A stretch of 58,223 nucleotides of DNA from Desulfobacterales bacterium (GTDB lineage: Bacteria > Desulfobacterota > Desulfobacteria > Desulfobacterales > RPRI01): positions 1 to 58,223 of the forward strand of contig JAGVOC010000287.1 in assembly GCA_020052975.1 (NCBI GenBank). The letters run 5' to 3'. This document shows positions 557-49,011 of this stretch, in pieces; the stretch's first letter is position 1; each line of letters starts with the position of its first letter. Made by a program: the position numbers and the translations under genes. The notes beneath the pieces are model-generated. The model did not search any database and had not been told where the DNA came from. It saw only the letters and a program-made list of their open reading frames with translations.

Positions 557-3500
557 TTAATGCCTCATCATCGCTGAGTGAAGCCTTTTGGCCTGCAGGC
601 AGAATGCGTCCAGTTTTGCTGTTATCAGTTGAGGAAAAGGAGACCCATCGCTTTCAATTGCAAGAAAAGGAAGACTGTCAACATCCGAAAGAATATTTTT
701 AAGCCGCCGGTTATTATGTTTTGCCGCAAGTTTGTCCTCGCGGTTCATGATCTCGCTCAAAATCGCTTCAGAAAGCCTGTTGGGCATGCATCCAAAAGGG
801 CCGATTGCAATTACTCCGCAGGCATGGGCAGCTATTTCAGAGATAGAGCTTCCGACAGTCAAAACTGCCTCTCCCGTTAGATTTGGCGATATGTAAGGCA
901 TGGCGGTCTTAATAATTGATTTTGCATTCACAGGCTCAGCATGCACAAGCCCAGATTGTGACAATATTTTCTTTATGCTTTTTTCATATTTTCTCATATA
1001 ACTCTTTTTAATAACATAAGAGAGTCTTTCCAGGGGGCCCATTTCCGAATCAACAAGACCTTTATCAACCAGATAATCGCAATAATAGAGCCACTCCGCA
1101 ATCGGAGAGCAGACAGTTGCAAATCCCATATCAGCCAGTCTTTCTGTAATATGCTGTCTTGATATCGAATCCCTCCGGACAAATATCTCACCAACAAGCG
1201 ATATCCTTGGAACTTCGTCCGGCGGAAGTTTCATCGGAAGCGCTTTAAATTTTTCAGCGCTCTCTTTTATCTTCTTTCCGAAACTACTGAAGTCTCCTTT
1301 CTCCAGTTCACGGAGAATCAAACGCCATTCTTTTTCAAAAAGATCCAGAGCGGAATCACGATCAAGGGCATTTGCCAAAATCATTGAACGTATATCTTCC
1401 ATCACATCCGATACGACAACACTCCACCAACCTCTTCTGTGAAAATTGTTTCCCATTCCTCCGTATGAATTCTCGGAAGTAAGGGACAGCATGGCAACAT
1501 CTGGGATCCCGAGCCTTGCAATAAGATCTTCCATAAAAATATGATACTGGCCGAACCTGCAAGGACCGGAAGAAGTCGGCATGAAATAAATCAGAACATC
1601 TCCCCTTGATTTTCCGTTATTTATGTGATTAAGAAGCGTCCCGGTAGTCAGTATCAGAGGCAGACACTCCTTACAGGACGTATTGGCGCGTCCAAGCTTC
1701 AGAACTGCTTTGTCGGCAGGAGGATGAGCCACAACATTAAAGCCGTTTGCCCGGAATACAGCAGCAAACGATTCTGAGGCTAACCGGCCCATTGAAGGCA
1801 GCAGCAGCGTAACGCTGGGATCAGTAACTGGAAGAGTCCTGCCGGATGAAGTGGTTACCTTTGCAACTCCATTATCAAGAGCCACTCTTGCCGGTATAAA
1901 TTTTTTCGTCCTGCTCACAATCTTTTTTTCGGATATCAGATGCCTGTAAGAATTTATAATATCGATGAAGGCTTCAATTCTTGTTTCTAAACCGGCATCT
2001 GCAGTATGGTTATCGAGCTCAAGGGTTAATGACGGCTTTTTCCCCATGATATCTCTGAAGTAGCCCAGGAGAAAAGAATCGGGACCACAGGAGAAGTTGG
2101 TTATAAAGGTTCCGAACAGCTGGGGGTGGCGTTCAACTATCTTTCCGGCTTTAAGCAACAACTGGCCCATACCCCAGTACATATGTCGTTTGCTTTCTTC
2201 ATTATCGAAATCAAGAAAATCAAACGGCAGGACCCTTATGCCTCTTGAGGCAAATTTACGGGGTATCCCCATATGAGCTTCTTCAACAAATCCATTGTAA
2301 GGTCTTGCAAAAATGACCACAGCAAATTTATCAGGATCTTTTTCCAGCTCGGTTATTGCTTCTCTGCCTAGCAGCTTCATCTCTTCAACACATCTCTTTT
2401 GTGCTTCAATCGCCTTAATAAATGCCTTTTCAGCCGGTTTTCTTGCAGATCCCATAGATACAGCTGTCTCGATCAGAGGTTCTTTCGCGGATTCTATGCC
2501 TTTTGTAAGATCAAGGAGCGGCATCAGGATTTTTGTGCCCTTTTTCTTAATTTCCGCAATCTTTTTTCTGAAAGCAGTTTGAAGATAAAATATTTCTCCC
2601 TGTACAAGCGGACAGACCTGGGAACTCAGATATCCATTTGTAGCCGGCACTGCCTTAAAATGAGGCAGAAAAATGAATTCGGGAGCATCATCGCCGGAAA
2701 TAAGAGACCAGAAAAATCCATGAGCCTGCTCAACAGGATAACAAAAGGCGGCCCCTTTCTGATCAATTCCTTCCTGTGAAAGAACTTCGGGCATTACAGT
2801 TTCAAACCCAAGTTCACCAAAAAAATTGGAATATAAGGGATAGTATGTATTTACGAGGAAACTTTTGTTTATGCCAATCCGGCCTTTTGGTTTTATTTTT
2901 GTTCTCTTGTTCAATAAAGGATGGTATTTTTCAAAAACAAGCTTCTGGCGGGTATTTACTGAATCAAGCTTATCAGCATCGCTTTCGATGTTGTGACGAA
3001 GGTTATAATAACGGTTACATGCCCCCCCGAACGGATATTTTTTATTTTCAAGCTCGATTACTGCGATATTACAGCGGCGGTCGCAATCATTTTTTACTCC
3101 CCTGCATATAAATGACTTCCCATATTTGACTTCACGGCCTGCAAGGGCTTTTAGATCAAAAAGTTTTCTTGCCAATAAACCTGTTTCGATTCTTTTTTTG
3201 ACCTCAAGAGCAGCCCCGAATGCCCCCATAAGCCCCGGCTCGGGAGGAACAACAATAGGTTTGCCAACCAAAGCTGCCATGGCAAGAGGAACAGCATTAT
3301 TGTAACATACTCCTCCCTGCATGAATATTTTCTCTCCTACCGGCCTGTTACCCTTAACCCTGTTTGAATAATTCATGCAGATTGAATAAGCAAGGCCGGC
3401 AACAATGTCTTCGTGCTTCATCCCTTCATGTATGGCATTTTTTATATCCGAAGAAATAAATGCAGCGCACTGATCATTGAAGTTCGGAGGCAATTCCCCC

Positions 3501-4948
3501 TCTAATGCAACTTCGGCTATATCTTCCATTTTTATTCCAAGCGTCTCATATGCCGATTCTTCGAGGAAGGAACCTGTGCCTGCTGAACAGGCTTCATTCA
3601 TGGCATAATCAGAAGGAACTGAATTTGTAATATATGTATATTTTGCGTCCTGCCCGCCTATTTCAAATATTGTATCAACCTTCGGATCAAAATAGACTGC
3701 TGCTGCAGCATGGGCGATGATTTCGTTTATTATACCGTCTGTAAGCGCGTGAAGACCCGCAATCTGGCGGCCTGAACCACACACACCCAGTCCTTCTATG
3801 GTTATACCTGAAAGCAACGCCTTATTTTCCAAAGCTTTCATTATAAATTCATAACACTTTCTTGAAGCACCTACCGGATCACCATTTGTCCTGAGATAAA
3901 CCGATTCAAGGATTGCATTATCCCTGTTCCTCAGAAGAACAGCCTTTGTGGTCGTCGAACCGACATCAAGGCCAAGTGTGCATATATCACCGGCTTCAAC
4001 ATCTCCTTTTGAAATGCCCTTGAATTCCACCATATCTTTAAATTCTTTTAAGGGGTAAAGCGTTTCAAAAGAATGAGCCTCATTTTTAAACAATAACTCA
4101 GTGCCGGGAAAAGAGAGCGTCTCATGTTCAAGAGCCCATAAGGCAGCACCAAGAGCTTCAAAATAAGGGGCTTCTCTTGGAATGATCAAGCCCGGGATTT
4201 CTCTCTGCAAATAATCAATCATCATCTTGTTTTGGGTAGTTCCCCCGGTGATCATAATATTTTCTCTTTTCACCTTTTTTAAAAGCTCCAGGATCTTGTT
4301 TGCCATCATTTTGCAAAGTCCTGAAGCCACCTTTGATTTGGGGACTCCCTTGTTGGTAGCATGGGTGCAATCCGATTTGCAGAAAACTGAACAGCGGCCT
4401 GAAACATTATGCGGTTCTTCCGCTGCTGCCCAGGTGGCCGCCTCTTCAATTGAAACATTCATTCTCCGGAGCTGCTGGAGAAAAAACTCGCCTGTTCCGG
4501 ACGCGCACTTGTTTCCGGTCAGGACATTCGATATTCTTCCGTCATGGTTTAATACATAAACCATGAATGTTTCTCCGCCTGCAGAAACAATGGCCGGGGA
4601 GAAAATGTCCGGGGGTTTGACAAACCCGTATGCATATTCAACCGCCTCCGGTTCGGGGATGGCCGATAAATTTAATAGTTTATGGAATCTGCGGCCGGTT
4701 GAGGCTATCCTGTCAAAAGAATTCCCAAGCTGTTCAAATGCAGAAAGGAGGGTGCGTCGCGGATCACCTTCATGAGGAAGAGTTAAAAAGCCGGTAATAC
4801 GGGGGTTGACAGGCAGATCGGTTACTTCCGGACCGGTGCGCAGCTCCGCTTCAAGCTGAACAGCGGAAATAGTTGAAGCGCCGAGGCAGAGCCCGAGAGA
4901 TCTGATCTTCTCGTTGCGGTATTTCTCCCTGCCGTACTGAATATCCAT
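557..4948 (-). CDS. Acyl-CoA dehydratase activase-like protein, two activase domains plus DUF2229/HgdB-like region
   Basis: This very large (1463 aa) soluble protein belongs to the BadF/BadG/HgdC activase superfamily. An ASKHA ATPase domain occupies about residues 15-285, with CASGTG near 148 and a Cys-rich CSVFCKSDC. A second occupies about 325-610, with DVGSTTTK near 328, CSAGTG near 454 and QCAAF near 494. CxxGTG and the later Cys are where HgdC-type activases hold their bridging 4Fe-4S cluster. The C-terminal ~800 residues resemble DUF2229 and HgdB-like dehydratase subunits. Activases couple ATP hydrolysis to low-potential electron transfer to 2-hydroxyacyl-CoA dehydratases or benzoyl-CoA reductases; the role of this stand-alone fusion is not known to me. 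I chose ATG 4948 because the 30 codons before it lie in a dispersed repeat and GGGGTGA precedes it. Confidence 0.85.
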   Translation of the reverse strand: MDIQYGREKYRNEKIRSLGLCLGASTISAVQLEAELRTGPEVTDLPVNPRITGFLTLPHEGDPRRTLLSAFEQLGNSFDRIASTGRRFHKLLNLSAIPEPEAVEYAYGFVKPPDIFSPAIVSAGGETFMVYVLNHDGRISNVLTGNKCASGTGEFFLQQLRRMNVSIEEAATWAAAEEPHNVSGRCSVFCKSDCTHATNKGVPKSKVASGLCKMMANKILELLKKVKRENIMITGGTTQNKMMIDYLQREIPGLIIPREAPYFEALGAALWALEHETLSFPGTELLFKNEAHSFETLYPLKEFKDMVEFKGISKGDVEAGDICTLGLDVGSTTTKAVLLRNRDNAILESVYLRTNGDPVGASRKCYEFIMKALENKALLSGITIEGLGVCGSGRQIAGLHALTDGIINEIIAHAAAAVYFDPKVDTIFEIGGQDAKYTYITNSVPSDYAMNEACSAGTGSFLEESAYETLGIKMEDIAEVALEGELPPNFNDQCAAFISSDIKNAIHEGMKHEDIVAGLAYSICMNYSNRVKGNRPVGEKIFMQGGVCYNNAVPLAMAALVGKPIVVPPEPGLMGAFGAALEVKKRIETGLLARKLFDLKALAGREVKYGKSFICRGVKNDCDRRCNIAVIELENKKYPFGGACNRYYNLRHNIESDADKLDSVNTRQKLVFEKYHPLLNKRTKIKPKGRIGINKSFLVNTYYPLYSNFFGELGFETVMPEVLSQEGIDQKGAAFCYPVEQAHGFFWSLISGDDAPEFIFLPHFKAVPATNGYLSSQVCPLVQGEIFYLQTAFRKKIAEIKKKGTKILMPLLDLTKGIESAKEPLIETAVSMGSARKPAEKAFIKAIEAQKRCVEEMKLLGREAITELEKDPDKFAVVIFARPYNGFVEEAHMGIPRKFASRGIRVLPFDFLDFDNEESKRHMYWGMGQLLLKAGKIVERHPQLFGTFITNFSCGPDSFLLGYFRDIMGKKPSLTLELDNHTADAGLETRIEAFIDIINSYRHLISEKKIVSRTKKFIPARVALDNGVAKVTTSSGRTLPVTDPSVTLLLPSMGRLASESFAAVFRANGFNVVAHPPADKAVLKLGRANTSCKECLPLILTTGTLLNHINNGKSRGDVLIYFMPTSSGPCRFGQYHIFMEDLIARLGIPDVAMLSLTSENSYGGMGNNFHRRGWWSVVVSDVMEDIRSMILANALDRDSALDLFEKEWRLILRELEKGDFSSFGKKIKESAEKFKALPMKLPPDEVPRISLVGEIFVRRDSISRQHITERLADMGFATVCSPIAEWLYYCDYLVDKGLVDSEMGPLERLSYVIKKSYMRKYEKSIKKILSQSGLVHAEPVNAKSIIKTAMPYISPNLTGEAVLTVGSSISEIAAHACGVIAIGPFGCMPNRLSEAILSEIMNREDKLAAKHNNRRLKNILSDVDSLPFLAIESDGSPFPQLITAKLDAFCLQAKRLHSAMMRH

Positions 4949-4961
4949 ACCGGTCACCCCA

Positions 4962-5103
4962 GACGGCCTCGTAAAAAGCTCATTATGCAAGGCGCGCGAA
5001 TCTTGGAGGAATGAAGCGTACTTATTGGTACGCTGCAATGACGAAAGATGAAGCGTCCGCCTCAGGCGGACCGCGGCGGACAGAATAATTTTTTACAAAG
5101 CCG
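4962..5103. repeat. Dispersed GTAAAAAGTC-family repeat, inverted copy
   Basis: This 140-bp unit starts GACGGCCTCGTAAAAAG and ends TTTTTTACAAAGCCGCC, so its ends are imperfect inverted repeats. Its inside, with GCGTACTTATTGGTACGC and a CCGCGGCGGAC palindrome, matches the reverse complement of 58118-58223 over at least 100 bp with few differences. It separates the aminotransferase stop from the activase start and supplies a spurious 5' extension of the activase frame. Confidence 0.8.
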
Positions 5104-43430: not shown

Positions 43431-43460
43431 CTGATATATCTCGGAAGGATATTAATAAAA

Positions 43461-43907
43461 ATGCTTTTAAATAAGGAACTTAGACTGGCTTTTTATCTGG
43501 CTGTTGTTCTGTTTATTGTTGGTACTGTTTGTTATGCAGCCTTTCCGGCCAAAACACATGTGCAGCCGGTTAGGATCATGTTCAAAACTCTTGCCGGAAA
43601 AGTTCTTTTCGATCATAAAGCACATACTTCAGAAAAAGGCTATGCCCTTTCTTGTGGAGACTGCCACCATCATCCTGAAGGAGATGATGCTTCTGCCAGT
43701 GCCTGCGGTGAATGCCACATCAATTCAGAAGATAACGCACCAGCTCCAAAAAAATGCCTTGAATGCCACGATTCCGGAGATTTTGAAGGCGTTGATTTGA
43801 CAAAAAGAACCGATGCATTTCACCAGCAGTGCGACAGCTGTCATGAAAAAGCTGATGCCGGTCCCAAGGAAAAAGAGAAAAGATGTAACTGGTGTCATAT
43901 TATGTAA
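43461..43907 (+). CDS. Five-haem c-type cytochrome, cytochrome c3/c7-like
   Basis: This 148-aa protein has an N-terminal hydrophobic helix (about 9-30) serving as signal or anchor, then five CxxCH haem sites: CGDCH, CGECH, CLECH, CDSCH and CNWCH. The first is preceded by FDHKAHTSEKG, the usual cytochrome c3/c7 context with a distal His. It would lie in the periplasm, probably membrane-bound. ATG 43461 follows GGAAGGA; the longer TTG frame has no site. It is the first gene of the rnf operon; multihaem cytochromes occur at this place in other sulfate reducers and in Methanosarcina, where they exchange electrons with Rnf. Confidence 0.9.
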   Translation: MLLNKELRLAFYLAVVLFIVGTVCYAAFPAKTHVQPVRIMFKTLAGKVLFDHKAHTSEKGYALSCGDCHHHPEGDDASASACGECHINSEDNAPAPKKCLECHDSGDFEGVDLTKRTDAFHQQCDSCHEKADAGPKEKEKRCNWCHIM

Positions 43908-43977
43908 GCCGGAAACCAGACTTCCATGCTGTCATGAATCCGAGTGCGCAATTGCGTTAATAAAAGGTAATAAATAC

Positions 43978-45255
43978 ATGAAAAAACGACCATTCATATG
44001 CCTCAGCGAACCACATCTGGAATATGACGTTATCGAACCAGGCTGCGAACTGAAAGTCATTCCCATTCCGCAAAAAGCAGTTCTTTTTTCCGGTAAGGCC
44101 TATGACAAAAAAGGTTCTCCTTTATTTAAAGAAGGCGACAGGGTAAAAACAGGGCAAAAATTGATTCTTTATGCCGACTCGGAAGAGTATATTATTTCTA
44201 CAGTTACAGGCACTATATCTTCTGTTTCTCCATATGCCGGAGATTTTGGGAAATCCTGCACATCTGTTCAGATTGACGTTTCTGAAGATGAGACTGATGA
44301 TGCTTTCGGAAAGGCATCTGCGGACCAGAGCATTGAAACCGTCAGGAACTATCTTTCATCCCTGCCGGGCAACTTGCCCATAAAATCATTATTAGATCCA
44401 GGCAATAAAATTGACACAATAGTTATTACCGGCGTTGATTCTGATTTACTGGTAGTAACCAGTCAGTATATTGTTAACTCAAAAATGGAACATATAATAA
44501 AAGGTATAAAAATATTAAAATCGATCCCTGGTATTAACAATATAGTACTTGCGGTAAGAAGAGACTCGCTTCAGGGGTATGGCAATATCGGAGCAGAAGT
44601 AAAAAATATCAGCACAAGATATCCATCAGCTTTTCGGCAGCTTGTTATAAAAGAATCTCTCGACAGGATAGTTCCGGCAGGAAAAAAGCCTGAAGATATA
44701 GGAGTCTGTGTTATTAATGCAGAAGCGGTTGCATCTATAGGAATTGCCTTCTTGCATAACACTATTCCAACAGATAAAATTCTCACATTAATAAACAAGG
44801 ACGGCGCCAAAAAACTCGTTTCAGCAAGAATGGGAACTCCTATAGGCGATATTCTTAAAGCCTTCAACATTACTTTAAATCATGGGGACCGCTTGATCCT
44901 CGGAGGGCCGATGGTCGGTTCTCCCGTATATTCAGAGGATTATCCGGTTTTGCCTGATACTGATGCAATAATGGTTCAGGATAAAAATTACATACAGCCG
45001 GTTTCAGATTATCCATGCATAAACTGCGGTGACTGTATAAGAATATGCCCGGCTAATATTCCTGTAAATATGCTTATAAGATACCTTGAAGCAAAAATGT
45101 ACCGGCAGGCCGCAGAGGAATATGATCTTTATTCCTGCATAGAATGCGGACTTTGCAGTTATGTCTGCGTATCAAGGATGCCAATATCACAATATATCAG
45201 GCTTGCCAAATACGAACTTGCCGGAATTAACACAGCGGAGGCGGCGAATGCCTAA
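43978..45255 (+). CDS. rnfC: RnfC-like subunit lacking the NADH/FMN motifs
   Basis: This 425-aa cytoplasmic subunit keeps the RnfC architecture: a barrel-sandwich start, a middle domain, an SLBB-like part (LGTPIG equivalent MGTPIGDIL, LGGPMVG) and two ferredoxin-like Cys sets (347, 350, 353, 357 and 387, 390, 393, 397; the second ends CV, not CP). The region that in canonical RnfC reads GLGGAGFPT...ECEPY is here SLPGNLPIKS...DSDLLVV at about 128-160, and the downstream YPSGG(A/E)KQ is YPSAFRQ. NADH and FMN binding are therefore doubtful. ATG 43978 has AAAGGT upstream; the frame before it overlaps the cytochrome gene. Confidence 0.88.
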   Translation: MKKRPFICLSEPHLEYDVIEPGCELKVIPIPQKAVLFSGKAYDKKGSPLFKEGDRVKTGQKLILYADSEEYIISTVTGTISSVSPYAGDFGKSCTSVQIDVSEDETDDAFGKASADQSIETVRNYLSSLPGNLPIKSLLDPGNKIDTIVITGVDSDLLVVTSQYIVNSKMEHIIKGIKILKSIPGINNIVLAVRRDSLQGYGNIGAEVKNISTRYPSAFRQLVIKESLDRIVPAGKKPEDIGVCVINAEAVASIGIAFLHNTIPTDKILTLINKDGAKKLVSARMGTPIGDILKAFNITLNHGDRLILGGPMVGSPVYSEDYPVLPDTDAIMVQDKNYIQPVSDYPCINCGDCIRICPANIPVNMLIRYLEAKMYRQAAEEYDLYSCIECGLCSYVCVSRMPISQYIRLAKYELAGINTAEAANA

Positions 45256-46216
45256 TCAGAAAAAATTAATTGTTTCTCATGCACCTTTCTGCCATGACGG
45301 GAGTAAAATTTCAACCCGTAGTAATAACATTATGCTTGCGGCGCTTCCTGCCGTTCTCCATGGTTGCTATTTATACGGGTTACCTGCTGTCGGGGTTGTT
45401 GCTCTTTCCATTTCAACTGCAATAATCTGGGAATACCTGATAAACCTCTTGACCAAACGGCCGGCAACAATCGGAGATGGAAATGCAGCAGTAATCGGCA
45501 TGATGGTGGCAATGCTTTTTCCTGCAACAACCCCATGGTGGGCGGTTATTACAGGAACATTTGTTGCCATTGTTGTCGGAAAGCAGATATATGGAGGGAT
45601 TGGCGGAAACCCCTTCAATCCTGCTCTGATCGGGATTGCTATCCTGATGCTCTCATGGAAAAATATCTTTGATATAGATTATGCTTTATTAAATTATGAA
45701 TTTAATTTTGCCGCAGCATACCCGCTTGCCGCTCTGAAACATTACGGTGTATCCTCTGTTGACTCATTCAATCTTGCAGGCCTTTTGATGGGAAACCAGA
45801 CCGGCAGCATAGGCTCGGCATTCGGGCTTGCCCTTGCCTTCGGCGGATTATATCTCATCATCAGGGGGTTTATACGGTGGGAAATATCCTTTTCGTTTCT
45901 TGCCGCCCTTTTAATCACCTCTCTGATTTTTCAACTTTATGATAACGGCAAATATGCCGGTCCTTTATTCCATCTGTTAACAGGTAATACCCTTTTGGGA
46001 GCTTTTTTTCTTGCTACCGAAGATTCTTCATCCCCTGTCAACTTTATTCCCATGATTATATACGGAGCCGGCACGGGATTGATGGTTATGCTTATAAGAA
46101 ATATTGGTGGTCATGCTGATGGAGTGGTTTTTGCGATTCTTCTCATGAATCTCGCGAATCCGCTCATAGACAAGATAAGGCCAAAAGCCATGGGAAAGGT
46201 CAACAGCCATGCGTGA
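45248..46216 (+). CDS. rnfD: RnfD-like membrane subunit, FMN-Thr position replaced by Tyr
   Basis: This 322-aa NqrB/RnfD-family protein has about nine or ten membrane helices. It aligns well by eye with known RnfD: IMLAALPAV, GDGNAAVIGMMVAM, GKQIYGGIGGNPFNPALIG, LLTGNTLLGAFFLATE and GGHADGVVFAILLMN. The flavin-acceptor segment, (S/T)xATPL in relatives, reads AAAYPL with Tyr 158 where the FMN-bound Thr is expected. The ATG overlaps the rnfC stop by eight bases after a GGAGG. It otherwise looks intact in length and topology. Confidence 0.9.
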   Translation: MPNQKKLIVSHAPFCHDGSKISTRSNNIMLAALPAVLHGCYLYGLPAVGVVALSISTAIIWEYLINLLTKRPATIGDGNAAVIGMMVAMLFPATTPWWAVITGTFVAIVVGKQIYGGIGGNPFNPALIGIAILMLSWKNIFDIDYALLNYEFNFAAAYPLAALKHYGVSSVDSFNLAGLLMGNQTGSIGSAFGLALAFGGLYLIIRGFIRWEISFSFLAALLITSLIFQLYDNGKYAGPLFHLLTGNTLLGAFFLATEDSSSPVNFIPMIIYGAGTGLMVMLIRNIGGHADGVVFAILLMNLANPLIDKIRPKAMGKVNSHA

Positions 46217-46799
46217 AATGCTTAAAATGATAATAGTTCTGACCGCCTTATGCTCTTTTTCGGGCGGACTCCTTGCTGCACTCCGAAATGAAACTATGGA
46301 AAAGATTGAAAACCAGCAGCTTGAGTTTGTCAAAGGGCCGGCAATTCGCGAGATTTTAAAAGGATCAGCGAATGATCCGATTGCCGACCGTTTCAAAATC
46401 AAAGTCGGGGAAACCGAAAAAAGTTTCTTTGTGGGAAAATTCGACGGAAAAGCAGAAACCGTCGTCTTTGAATCCACAGGCAAGGGTTTTGGCGGAGACA
46501 TTGGCCTTATGCTTGGAGTTAATGTTGCAGACGACAAGATCGTAGGCATAGGCGTCACCACTCATAGTGAAACACCTGGAATTGGCTCAAGAGCCAAGAC
46601 AGACCCTCGTTTTGCAGCTCAATTCAAAGGACTTCCCCTTACCGGAGGTTTCAAGGTCAGAAAGGAGGGGGGGCAGGTCGATGCTATTTCAGGTGCTACT
46701 GTTACCTCAAAGGGTGTCGCAGTTGCTGTTACTGAAGCTGCAAAAATTTACACAAGTCTAAAACCACAGCTTGCAGAAAAATTGAGGGGATTCAAATAG
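46209..46799 (+). CDS. rnfG: Electron transport complex subunit RnfG, covalent FMN type
   Basis: This 196-aa protein has one N-terminal membrane helix (about 5-24) and a periplasmic FMN-binding domain. DAISGATVTS at 158-167 matches the flavinylation motif DxxSGAT, with Thr 164 as probable FMN acceptor. HSETPGIGS is also typical. An ApbE flavin transferase is needed but none is encoded in this window. The ATG overlaps the rnfD stop by eight bases. It is placed to exchange electrons with the five-haem cytochrome (inference). Confidence 0.93.
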   Translation: MREMLKMIIVLTALCSFSGGLLAALRNETMEKIENQQLEFVKGPAIREILKGSANDPIADRFKIKVGETEKSFFVGKFDGKAETVVFESTGKGFGGDIGLMLGVNVADDKIVGIGVTTHSETPGIGSRAKTDPRFAAQFKGLPLTGGFKVRKEGGQVDAISGATVTSKGVAVAVTEAAKIYTSLKPQLAEKLRGFK

Positions 46800-46809
46800 G
46801 GAGAAACAG

Positions 46810-47403
46810 ATGGCAAAGTCCGTAACTCAGGAATTTACAAAAGGATTGTGGACTGAAATTCCACCATTCCGGCTTGTGCTCGGCTTATGCCCGACACTTG
46901 CAGTTACAAAATCAGTTGAGAATGCAATTGGAATGGGCGTTGCCGTTATTTTCGTTCTAGTCGGCTCCAACGTGCTGGTTGCTATGCTGCGGAAAATTAT
47001 CCCTTCAAAGGTAAGGATTGCATGCTTCATCATTGTTGTTGCGACTTTTGTTACGGTTGTAGAACTCCTCATGCAGGCCTACACTTACCCGCTTTTTCTG
47101 AAACTGGGAATATTCATACCACTCATCGTTGTTAACTGCATTCCTCTCGGCCGCGCAGAAGCGTTTGCATACAAGAATGGAATCATACCTTCATTTGCAG
47201 ATGGTCTTGGCCTTGGAATAGGCTATGCGATGTCTTTAACGGTTCTTGCCGCTATCCGAGAGGTTTTCGGAAGCGGAACGTTTTATGGAAACCAGGTTTT
47301 CGGCCCTTCTTTTCAACCTTTTAATTTCATGGTGGAAGCGCCAGGTGCATTCGTGTGCCTCGGGCTCTTGCTTTGCGTAATGAATTTCATTGGCAAAAAA
47401 TAG
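46810..47403 (+). CDS. rnfE: Electron transport complex subunit RnfE
   Basis: This 197-aa membrane protein of the NqrDE/RnfAE family has six helices. It keeps the paired inverted-repeat cysteines, Cys 27 in LVLGLCPTLAVT and Cys 110 in LIVVNCIPLGRAEAFA, which with those of RnfA hold a 2Fe-2S cluster inside the membrane. GFGLGYxxx equivalent is GLGLGIGYAMSLT. It starts ten bases after rnfG and ends eight bases before rnfA. Confidence 0.95.
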   Translation: MAKSVTQEFTKGLWTEIPPFRLVLGLCPTLAVTKSVENAIGMGVAVIFVLVGSNVLVAMLRKIIPSKVRIACFIIVVATFVTVVELLMQAYTYPLFLKLGIFIPLIVVNCIPLGRAEAFAYKNGIIPSFADGLGLGIGYAMSLTVLAAIREVFGSGTFYGNQVFGPSFQPFNFMVEAPGAFVCLGLLLCVMNFIGKK

Positions 47404-47411
47404 GAGACATT

Positions 47412-47987
47412 ATGGGTGACTATGTTCTGCTTGTCATAAGCTGTGTACTTATAAACAATATATTGCTCATGCAATACCTCGGAAACTGTCCGTTCCTTGG
47501 AACGTCAAAGAAAATGGAGACGGCTGTCGGAATGGCAATGGCTGTTGTTTTTGTTCTCGTCCTGGCCGGAGCCATCACCTGGCTGACCGAGATGCTTGTT
47601 TTAAGAAAATTCGGGCTTGAGTACTTAAGGACAATGTCTTTCATACTTGTTATTGCTGCCCTTGTTCAGTTCGTGGAAATGTTTTTAAAGAAAAGTATCC
47701 CTGCCCTTTATGCAGGACTTGGCATCTTTCTTCCCCTTATTACAACAAACTGTGCGGTTCTGGGTGTTTGCCTGATAAATATCAAGGAAGAATATACCTT
47801 CATCGAATGTCTTGTATCTTCTTTCGGCTATTCTTCCGGATTCGGCCTTGCGCTGATACTTTTTGCAGGAGTACGTGAACGGATACTGCTTGCAAGGGTT
47901 CCAAAACCGCTTCAGGATACATCAATAGGGCTCGTGACTGCAGGGCTTCTTTCCCTTGCATTTTTTGCTTTCAAAGGCATGGCCTGA
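47412..47987 (+). CDS. rnfA: Electron transport complex subunit RnfA
   Basis: This 191-aa partner of RnfE has the same six-helix fold. Cys 26 (YLGNCPFLG) and Cys 114 (TTNCAVLGV) are conserved and complete the intramembrane 2Fe-2S site. ATG 47412 follows TAGGAGA; an earlier start in the frame overlaps rnfE and is unlikely. In most bacteria rnfB follows rnfA, but here the opposite-strand RluD-like gene ends eleven bases later and no rnfB is present. Confidence 0.95.
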   Translation: MGDYVLLVISCVLINNILLMQYLGNCPFLGTSKKMETAVGMAMAVVFVLVLAGAITWLTEMLVLRKFGLEYLRTMSFILVIAALVQFVEMFLKKSIPALYAGLGIFLPLITTNCAVLGVCLINIKEEYTFIECLVSSFGYSSGFGLALILFAGVRERILLARVPKPLQDTSIGLVTAGLLSLAFFAFKGMA

Positions 47988-47997
47988 TTACAGGTTC

Positions 47998-49011
47998 TTA
48001 GTATATGGTTTGTGGTTTTTTTTGACTTTTGCCTTCCGCCTTCTGCCTGTTTATCGCTTTCAGTGAATCTATAAGTTCTGCCATGTCATTAGGGATAGGT
48101 GCTTCAAACTCCATTGTCTTCTTTGTGGAAGGATGGCAGAATTTTATGCGCCAGGCATGAAGCATCTGCCTTTTAACCGATTTTAAGAGCTCGTGTTTCT
48201 CTTTATTATTTGTATCGGGCGCTTTAATCCTGCTGTGCCCATAGACCTGATCTCCTACAACCGGGTGTTTTATTGCAGAGCAGTGAACCCTTATCTGATG
48301 TGTCCGGCCTGTTTTTAAATCTATGCTTATAAGAGAAACGCCACCTAAACGCTCTACGACTTTCCAGTACGTTTCAGCAATTCTTGGTTTGCGGGTTACA
48401 ACAGACATTTTTTTTCTGTCTGCAGTATGTCTTCCGATCGGAAGCACAATCGAACCGGAATCCAGTTCCATACTCCCATGAACAAGAGCCACATATTTTT
48501 TTTTGATTTTTCTTTCCTTGAATTGAAAAGAGAGAAAAGCGTGTGCGGAATCGTTTTTCGCGGCTACAAGGACTCCCGATGTGTCTTTGTCCAACCTGTG
48601 AACAATCCCAGGCCTCATTTCACCGCCGATTCCGGCAAGGTCGTGGCAATGAAACAAAAGGGCATTGACAATGGTACCTGAATAATGGCCCGGAGCAGGA
48701 TGAACAACAATACCAGGTGGCTTGTTAATGACTATGATATCTGAATCCTGATAAAGGATATCGATTTCGATAGGTTCAGGAGCGTAGCAAACCGGATCAG
48801 GGTCTGGAATTGTCCCAAATATTTTATCGCCAAGCCTTACCCTGTATCCGGGTTTTTTCAGATTATGCTGAACCAATATATTGCCTTTCTGGATCAGAGA
48901 AGCAGCAAGGGATCTGGAACAGGAAGGGAGAAATGAAGAGACAACTACATCAAGACGTTTTCCGGAATCGGATTTGTCCACGCAAATGGTAAAGTCTTTC
49001 CTGCCGGGCAT
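47998..49011 (-). CDS. RluD-family rRNA/tRNA pseudouridine synthase
   Basis: This 337-aa enzyme has an N-terminal S4 RNA-binding domain (about 15-75) and an RluA-family catalytic domain with HRLDKDTSG, whose Asp is the nucleophile, and KTGRTHQIRVH later. This type modifies 23S rRNA (RluD: U1911, U1915 and U1917 in E. coli) or tRNA; I favour RluD by the S4 domain and length but cannot exclude a paralogue. It converges on rnfA and stands six bases downstream of the carD-like gene. Confidence 0.9.
   Translation of the reverse strand: MPGRKDFTICVDKSDSGKRLDVVVSSFLPSCSRSLAASLIQKGNILVQHNLKKPGYRVRLGDKIFGTIPDPDPVCYAPEPIEIDILYQDSDIIVINKPPGIVVHPAPGHYSGTIVNALLFHCHDLAGIGGEMRPGIVHRLDKDTSGVLVAAKNDSAHAFLSFQFKERKIKKKYVALVHGSMELDSGSIVLPIGRHTADRKKMSVVTRKPRIAETYWKVVERLGGVSLISIDLKTGRTHQIRVHCSAIKHPVVGDQVYGHSRIKAPDTNNKEKHELLKSVKRQMLHAWRIKFCHPSTKKTMEFEAPIPNDMAELIDSLKAINRQKAEGKSQKKPQTIY

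Follow-up and report, generated by a model that had tools for sequence, protein, structure and literature searches.

We analysed the whole of contig JAGVOC010000287.1 (58,223 nucleotides, hereafter the window) from the Desulfobacterales bacterium assembly GCA_020052975.1, in which one cytochrome gene and five rnf genes form an operon at 43461-47987. The order cytochrome-rnfC-D-G-E-A, the common plus strand, the tight spacing and the five haem motifs given in a preliminary description of the same DNA were all borne out by the open reading frames (ORFs) and family scans. The rnfC, D, G, E and A genes overlap or sit close together, and the operon ends against a converging gene 10 bp behind rnfA, rather than eleven bases as described before. 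The features are as follows:

43461..43907, plus strand: multihaem c-type cytochrome, predicted to be periplasmic; 148 amino acids (aa), five CxxCH motifs, N-terminal hydrophobic segment.
43978..45255, plus strand: rnfC, 425 aa; barrel-sandwich and Rossmann-like domains and two 4Fe-4S motifs retained, GxGGAxFPT loop and ECEP gone.
45248..46216, plus strand: rnfD, membrane subunit of 322 aa; TIGR01946 246.6 bits, over cut-off.
45719..45721, plus strand: codon of RnfD Tyr158, replacing the Thr linked to flavin mononucleotide (FMN); AAYPLA against canonical SGATPL, from RnfD structures in the PDB and family alignments.
46209..46799, plus strand: rnfG, periplasmic FMN subunit of 196 aa with SGATVT retained; NF045876 (RnfG_DVU2794) 255.9 bits, cut-off 205.
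46698..46700, plus strand: codon of RnfG Thr164, the Thr of the SGAT FMN-attachment motif.
46810..47403, plus strand: rnfE, membrane subunit of 197 aa with Cys27 and Cys110; TIGR01948 237.6 bits, over cut-off.
47412..47987, plus strand: rnfA, membrane subunit of 191 aa with Cys26 and Cys114; TIGR01943 245.4 bits, over cut-off.
47998..49011, minus strand: RluD-like pseudouridine synthase gene (Pfam PF00849 and S4); converging, closes the operon and lies outside the complex.

The canonical subunits RnfA, C, D, E and G are all encoded, with RnfC scoring 205.2 bits against TIGR01945, under the cut-off of 245.95. For all five subunits the Rnf models outscored the Nqr models, which does not place the operon with Na+-NQR. 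The cytochrome matched Pfam Cytochrome_C7 with 30.1 bits (cut-off 24.8) and, as its best NCBIfam match, TmcA with 39 bits, under the TmcA cut-off of 114; these scans took 43458-43907, one codon more than the ORF starting with ATG. Against a plasmid collection, RnfC gave distant matches only, with at most 31.7% identity among the best 20 of 29 listed. The earlier statement that RnfB is missing from the window was upheld by a six-frame search with a profile of 12 RnfB N-termini, which found no RnfB-like frame in the window, the top score being 13.8 bits in the frame of rnfC.

In the solved Rnf, electrons are described as passing from RnfB through the 2Fe-2S site of RnfA/E to the FMN of RnfG, then to the FMN and riboflavin of RnfD, the clusters of RnfC and NAD (PMC12174285). 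We examined the cofactor sites of this path in the window and in relatives; an RnfC-alignment scan of genome contigs gave 152 confirmed stretches, the best 80 of which were used as loci (L numbers; their genomes carry G numbers). Compared by alignment with solved Rnf structures and with one canonical RnfC, from Desulfonema, the RnfC of the window is without the GxGGAxFPT loop and ECEP of the FMN/NADH site, while a weak Complex1_51K match persists (46.4 bits) and the eight invariant Cys of the two 4Fe-4S motifs are retained. The five top Foldseek matches of an RnfC structure model, used for the fold only (mean pLDDT 75.6, low confidence in the Fe-S region), are the RnfC chains of 8ahx, 8rbm, 8rbq, 9eri and 7zc6, indicating that the fold, as modelled, is retained despite the motif loss. 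In RnfD, Tyr158 stands at the position of the flavin-linked Thr of canonical RnfD (SGATPL/ATPLA), and the residue in this column for the window and 77 relatives (n=78) is Y in 70, F in 5, A in 2 and D in 1. The first half of the path presents another picture. The GAT of RnfG, part of the S/TGAT motif reported as the FMN site (PMC4023990), is present at 74 of 76 loci, the exceptions L036 and L067 running off their contigs; C27/C110 of RnfE are conserved in 71/71 and C26/C114 of RnfA in 64/64 aligned sequences. These column alignments left out sequences shorter than 80% of the window protein. The flavin transferase ApbE was found in 10/10 genomes searched.

By motif alignment, the flavin sites of the return arm of this Rnf (RnfD Thr, RnfC FMN/NADH motif) are thus predicted to be lost, and the A/E and G arm to keep its cofactor residues: the RnfG Thr and the Cys pairs of RnfA/E are those of a canonical Rnf, and the RnfC FMN/NADH motif and the covalent-FMN Thr of RnfD are absent. 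Accordingly, the preliminary description was right about the intact RnfG FMN-Thr (SGATVT) and RnfA/E cysteines and about changes in RnfC and RnfD, and its doubt about ferredoxin:NAD oxidoreduction was well placed, as the textbook path is unlikely given the RnfC and RnfD site losses. As a separate matter, rnfE at L184, L185 and L190, from three related genomes, reads as a pair of neighbouring open frames, an odd recurrent break.

The layout recurs in the closest relatives. L001, L002 and L003 share the window's order of cell-division gene(s) (ftsZ), radical SAM gene, cytochrome, rnfCDGEA, rluD and downstream genes at ~80-99% protein identity within the reach of their contigs, and the operon of L004 is 66-97% identical, its contig ending thereafter. 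Since this order recurs in L001-L003, it is real rather than an assembly error; the idea that an error deleted rnfB after rnfA, for which we found no evidence, is refuted for practical purposes, as the converging gene likewise follows rnfA in these contigs from metagenome-assembled genomes. We also considered that the operon is a decaying, non-functional remnant left after the loss of rnfB, in line with the loss of two cofactor sites and of an adjacent rnfB. This is highly improbable, because the five rnf ORFs are 88-96% identical to their L001-L003 counterparts and conserved in order, the RnfA/E Cys and RnfG SGAT are retained, and Rnf2 subunits of Desulfococcus multivorans are reported as detected proteins (PMC5109826).

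The joint change of RnfC and RnfD was then followed through the phylum. A search with RnfG NF045876 gave a match in 83 of 197 Desulfobacterota genomes, from which 60 of the listed places were taken; added to the 80 loci and to a single canonical locus from Desulfonema, these made 141, of which 136 were classified after L007, L032, L078, L207 and L211 had been dropped for a missing or too short RnfC or RnfD. Both motifs were lost at 109 loci and kept at 23, RnfC was altered with RnfD kept at 4, and the reverse was found at 0. The first 80 loci had been chosen by likeness to the RnfC of the window and are a biased sample; at the other 59 loci the same four classes numbered 32, 23, 4 and 0. Three loci (L181, L186, L187) were scored as having lost the RnfD motif, with Thr in the column and the motif absent. 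A cytochrome with at least three haem motifs lies just upstream of rnfC at 98 of the 109 altered loci, 0/23 canonical and 0/4 intermediate ones; as L006 and L169 are one operon counted twice, 109 becomes 108 and 98 becomes 97 when it is counted once. In a FastTree phylogeny of concatenated RnfCDGEA, limited to tips with at least four genes, all 104 altered tips (of 131) fall in one clade with local support 0.907, and the window groups with L001-L004 (support 1.0). The counts may therefore reflect one evolutionary event, not 104. At L203, L206, L210 and L217 the order is G-E-A-B-C-D, RnfC lacks GGA.FP, RnfD keeps the FMN-Thr and no cytochrome lies directly upstream of rnfC. With the Desulfovibrionaceae-type RnfD of L165 as query, 419 relatives were found and the best 120 (P0121-P0240) examined, three of them named Desulfovibrio, Desulfovibrionaceae or Bilophila. 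As the alignment of these 120 was gapped at the Thr column, the motif was counted and the residue before PL recorded instead: [ST][GAS]AT[PV]L occurs in 0/120 of those listed, and Asp precedes PL in 120/120.

The RnfB missing from the window was sought in the relatives. RnfBs were called by BLAST and profiles, and matches under 60 bits were dropped; a plain regular expression misses several. Of the 80 loci, 44 encode a protein in the size range 606-729 aa, for the most part 687-705 aa, directly after rnfA in 35 and a few kb upstream in 9. Domain scans of six such or related proteins showed five RnfB fusions (one interrupted) and one unfused RnfB, 270 aa long. The fusions begin with an RnfB part (FeS PF04060 and Fer4; TIGR01944) and end with a GltD-like oxidoreductase part (Fer4_20/Pyr_redox_2). 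Ten genomes were searched with TIGR01944; those of L001-L003 (G001, G002 and G003) each encode two such RnfB-GltD fusions of 692-694 aa, on contigs other than those of the operon; one of the six, G001:C237, scores under the TIGR01944 cut-off. We designated the two types fus1 (692 aa; L121, L123, L125) and fus2 (694 aa; L122, L124, L126).

Over 687-697 aa, the fus2 protein is 65-70% identical to the operon fusions at the 14 loci where it outscored the other queries, and in a tree of RnfB N-termini it lies inside the operon-linked fusion clade (56 tips, support 0.999), nearest to L058 (support 0.935). Its copies in G002 and G003 are 91-93% identical, and in G004 a fragment at a contig edge matches its last 150 residues at 93% identity. 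By sequence and tree position, fus2 is orthologous to the RnfB linked to the operon at 44/80 related loci, and relatives of the window encode RnfB in trans as an RnfB-GltD fusion; from the sister genomes we infer the same for the genome to which the window belongs. The fusions might have belonged to a second, canonical rnf operon; such an operon was looked for in G001-G004 and not found. No rnfC there scored over the TIGR01945 cut-off, the weak matches being to the same operon type and to NqrA-like ends, so that no Rnf core besides this one was found to go with the fusions. Further RnfA/E-type genes of G002-G004 sit in an Nqr operon only (NqrA and NqrF-like domains checked in G003, the others assigned by likeness). 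The NqrA of the G003 Nqr operon (L127:9958-11298, minus strand) has a C-terminal 4Fe-4S dicluster match beside its NQRA domains.

Detachment of rnfB is not confined to the closest relatives. Among the 109 altered loci, fused RnfB lies downstream at 50, elsewhere in the locus at 9 and in interrupted form at 2; unfused RnfB lies downstream at 9, in another part of the locus at 7 and, where rnfA is cut off, at 3 more. RnfB is absent at 29, comprising 7 with good flanks on both sides, 2 with good flanks on the downstream side only and 20 too short. A search of 15 genomes with the RnfB alignment gave a match in 13. For the well-flanked loci L003, L056, L172, L178 and L179 the RnfB or fusion is on another contig, for L166 it is ~6 kb upstream on the opposite strand, and for L175 no RnfB was found by this search in its genome, G192.

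The preliminary description had proposed an Rnf derivative without RnfB, serving an unknown cytoplasmic partner, and had suggested that rnfB be sought elsewhere in the genome and that recurrence of the arrangement be checked. The window without rnfB, the recurrence of well-flanked loci without an adjacent rnfB (7/109) and L175, in whose genome no RnfB was found, speak for such a derivative. We nevertheless consider it very unlikely: for six of the seven loci, RnfB or a fusion lies at another place in the same genome. Likewise rnfB was found elsewhere in all four sister genomes examined, as fusions on other contigs in G001-G003 and the fragment in G004, and therefore the reading of an Rnf without RnfB fails and the absence holds for the window only. 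Operons without rnfB should hence not be called incomplete from a single contig.

Two further observations concern RnfB itself. In the sister group of the window clade (L005, L006, L009, L011, L013-L016, L020), an unfused RnfB of 266-272 aa is encoded upstream of the cytochrome gene at 9/9 loci, on either strand, and no RnfB-GltD fusion was seen in four genomes of this group (G005-G008); judged from its domains, the complex of this group would have no recognised NAD(P) site. At L035:14041-16131 and L072:14217-16341 the RnfB fusion is broken into two or three frames, possibly by sequencing error.

The two fusion types differ in their nucleotide-binding motifs. The fus2-type fusions listed retain GxGPAG-like FAD and YRR....MPA motifs, the same as in NfnB- and StnC-type proteins, and we take the arginines of YRR....MPA to read the 2'-phosphate of NADP. 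The fus1-type fusions have GGG.EG-like motifs and no YRR....MPA, a degraded NADP motif. In G001-G003, fus1 belongs to a conserved cluster of NuoE-like, DRTGG, NuoF-like, fus1 and RseC genes (L121:3928-9395, L123:3100-8671, L125:6180-11782; Pfam check on the G001 copy). At L174:5611-14031, on to 18277, a NuoF-like gene lies directly upstream of cytochrome-rnfCDGEA-fus1, with a DRTGG-domain gene further upstream, and this NuoF is 76% identical to that of the fus1 cluster. An RseC-like gene is near the fus1-type gene at 4/5 of L132 and L243-L246, and in Clostridium ljungdahlii autotrophy is reported to need rseC, as it needs rnf (PMC9124969). The arrangement resembles the electron-bifurcating transhydrogenase StnABC in having NuoE- and NuoF-like genes beside a GltD-like fold (compare StnA, StnB and the GltD part of StnC); it differs in that the GltD part of StnC is described as joined to a NuoG-like domain, whereas in fus1 it is joined to RnfB and has a degraded NADP motif (PMC10482914). 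A detached rnfB could let one core serve two inputs, the NADPH-type fus2 and the fus1 paralog beside NuoE/NuoF. However, fus1 is tied to the Rnf core by gene neighbourhood only, and this idea is weakened as no NuoF was found near the fus1-type genes of L132 and L243-L246 (L243 has short upstream sequence) or at L171 and L173, where the fus1-type gene follows rnfA.

The system is the known, little-understood Rnf2 of sulfate-reducing bacteria, of which rnfB in trans is the variation here. The Rnf of Desulfobacula toluolica Tol2 is described with an RnfB of ~700 aa with NAD-binding sites and an RnfC without NADH domain, and the second rnf cluster (Rnf2) of D. multivorans as of the Tol2 type with a cytochrome (PMC5109826); Rnf2 is also listed in the Desulfobacteraceae core genome (PMC11887813). 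The window shares with these a cytochrome gene within the cluster, as stated for the rnf2 of D. multivorans, and the RnfC without NADH-binding domain. The large RnfB with NAD-binding sites, ~700 aa, is absent from the window and lies in trans in the sister genomes, so that an unlinked rnfB, with two distinct RnfB fusions per genome in three relatives, sets this type apart from Rnf2 as described. A further difference is the loss of the RnfD FMN-Thr, of which the accessible Rnf2 description holds no mention that we found (PMC5109826); nor did we find the RnfD change in the Rnf2 clade mentioned in the open-access literature, supplementary files aside. As far as the alignments go, the RnfD FMN-Thr loss in the cytochrome-associated clade is apparently new, and it seems new as well that the two flavin sites of the return arm were lost together.

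Other systems are alike in part. In Desulfotignum phosphitoxidans, rnfCDGEA and a cytochrome c gene are listed as a set, with no mention that we found of RnfB being missing (PMC4046663). The rnfCDGEABF and dhcA genes of Desulfovibrio alaskensis have the cytochrome first and the C-D-G-E-A order, but by published description differ in an adjacent RnfB, a decahaem cytochrome and an in-operon rnfF, nearest to apbE (PMC4215793, PMC4841214). At L165, the sole Desulfovibrionaceae-type locus examined, RnfC and RnfD are altered and RnfB is unfused; Desulfovibrionaceae have been assigned to Rnf1 (PMC11887813), and by those two sites L165 therefore sides with Rnf2, not Rnf1. The Rnf of Methanosarcina acetivorans is alike in that it is reported to have no reaction with NAD(P) and that transfer from RnfG to cytochrome c is proposed; it differs in being archaeal, in its methanophenazine acceptor and in another proposed internal path, from RnfB to RnfC (PMC4023990).

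Based on these results, we consider it fairly probable that the operon supplies a Tol2-type Rnf2 with its membrane core and cytochrome, with RnfB coming from a separate locus and electrons exchanged with cytochrome c. Electrons from NAD(P)H and/or ferredoxin would enter the RnfB module and travel by way of the iron-sulfur site in RnfA/E to the flavin of RnfG at the periplasmic face, where they would be exchanged with the operon cytochrome c, or the flow may run in reverse; the transfer is perhaps coupled to ion movement, and RnfC would be a scaffold or Fe-S relay rather than an NAD site. Because the first half of the path keeps its residues, the second half has lost its sites and a cytochrome is in the operon, exchange between RnfG and cytochrome c is the simplest reading. 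For Desulfovibrio it was hypothesised earlier that Rnf connects NAD(P)H/ferredoxin with the pool of cytochrome c (PMC4287179), and outward one-way electron movement has been proposed for Nqr/Rnf-like complexes without the NqrB/RnfD flavin site (PMC11334425). A broader version, in which Rnf associated with a cytochrome in Desulfobacterota is a one-way conduit across the membrane instead of a ferredoxin:NAD pump, lost both return-arm flavin sites once in a common ancestor, delivers electrons from RnfG to cytochrome c and, in the lineage of the window, takes two interchangeable RnfB modules encoded elsewhere (NADPH via the GltD-like part, NADH via NuoE/NuoF), is put forward tentatively, with the odds rather against it.

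Several points weigh against cytochrome c exchange. No multihaem ORF lies just upstream of rnfC at 11/109 altered loci, and the RnfB evidence comes from sister genomes, by which the window's own rnfB is supposed. For the fitness of D. alaskensis, dhcA is reported as unimportant, a single experiment with pyruvate fermentation excepted, and rnf as important (PMC4215793); in a mutant of rnfA the proton motive force was reduced (PMC4841214). The Desulfovibrionaceae-type RnfD, to which these genetics relate, has the altered site too (motif in 0/120 listed). The Desulfovibrio genetics argue against an essential cytochrome, though other periplasmic cytochromes might stand in for DhcA. The Rnf2 cytochrome of D. 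multivorans was detected in lactate-adapted cells only and five Rnf2 subunits under all conditions (PMC5109826), and Rnf2 has been interpreted in print as a sodium pump linking the NADH and ferredoxin pools (PMC11887813). Finally, flavin may sit on RnfD non-covalently, and the two retained 4Fe-4S motifs of RnfC suggest that electrons go through it.

The main rival is a closed Rnf2 circuit, in which RnfB is again the trans fusion, electrons return via RnfD with non-covalent flavin or riboflavin and the RnfC Fe-S clusters to some cytoplasmic acceptor or to NuoE/NuoF, and the cytochrome is an accessory. The eight invariant RnfC Cys and the retained RnfC fold, the dispensable dhcA (PMC4215793) and the pool-linking reading of Rnf2 (PMC11887813) are in its favour, as is the statement in the D. 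multivorans paper that RnfC needs another acceptor or donor, yet to be identified (PMC5109826). The clade-wide disappearance of the RnfD attachment motif and the coincidence of the two-flavin-site loss with the gain of the operon cytochrome make this circuit the less likely one, and exchange with cytochrome c is preferred.

Depictions of Rnf in sulfate reducers usually show a ferredoxin:NAD oxidoreductase. If the covalent RnfD flavin and the RnfC NADH site are absent clade-wide, including the Desulfovibrionaceae-type RnfD, models of energy conservation need revision; exchange between cytoplasmic NAD(P)H/ferredoxin and the periplasmic cytochrome c pool would, if true, become directly testable. 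Apart from the operon, positions 557-5038 of the window (minus strand) hold an ORF of 1493 aa, which we take to resemble a two-part CoA-dehydratase activator.

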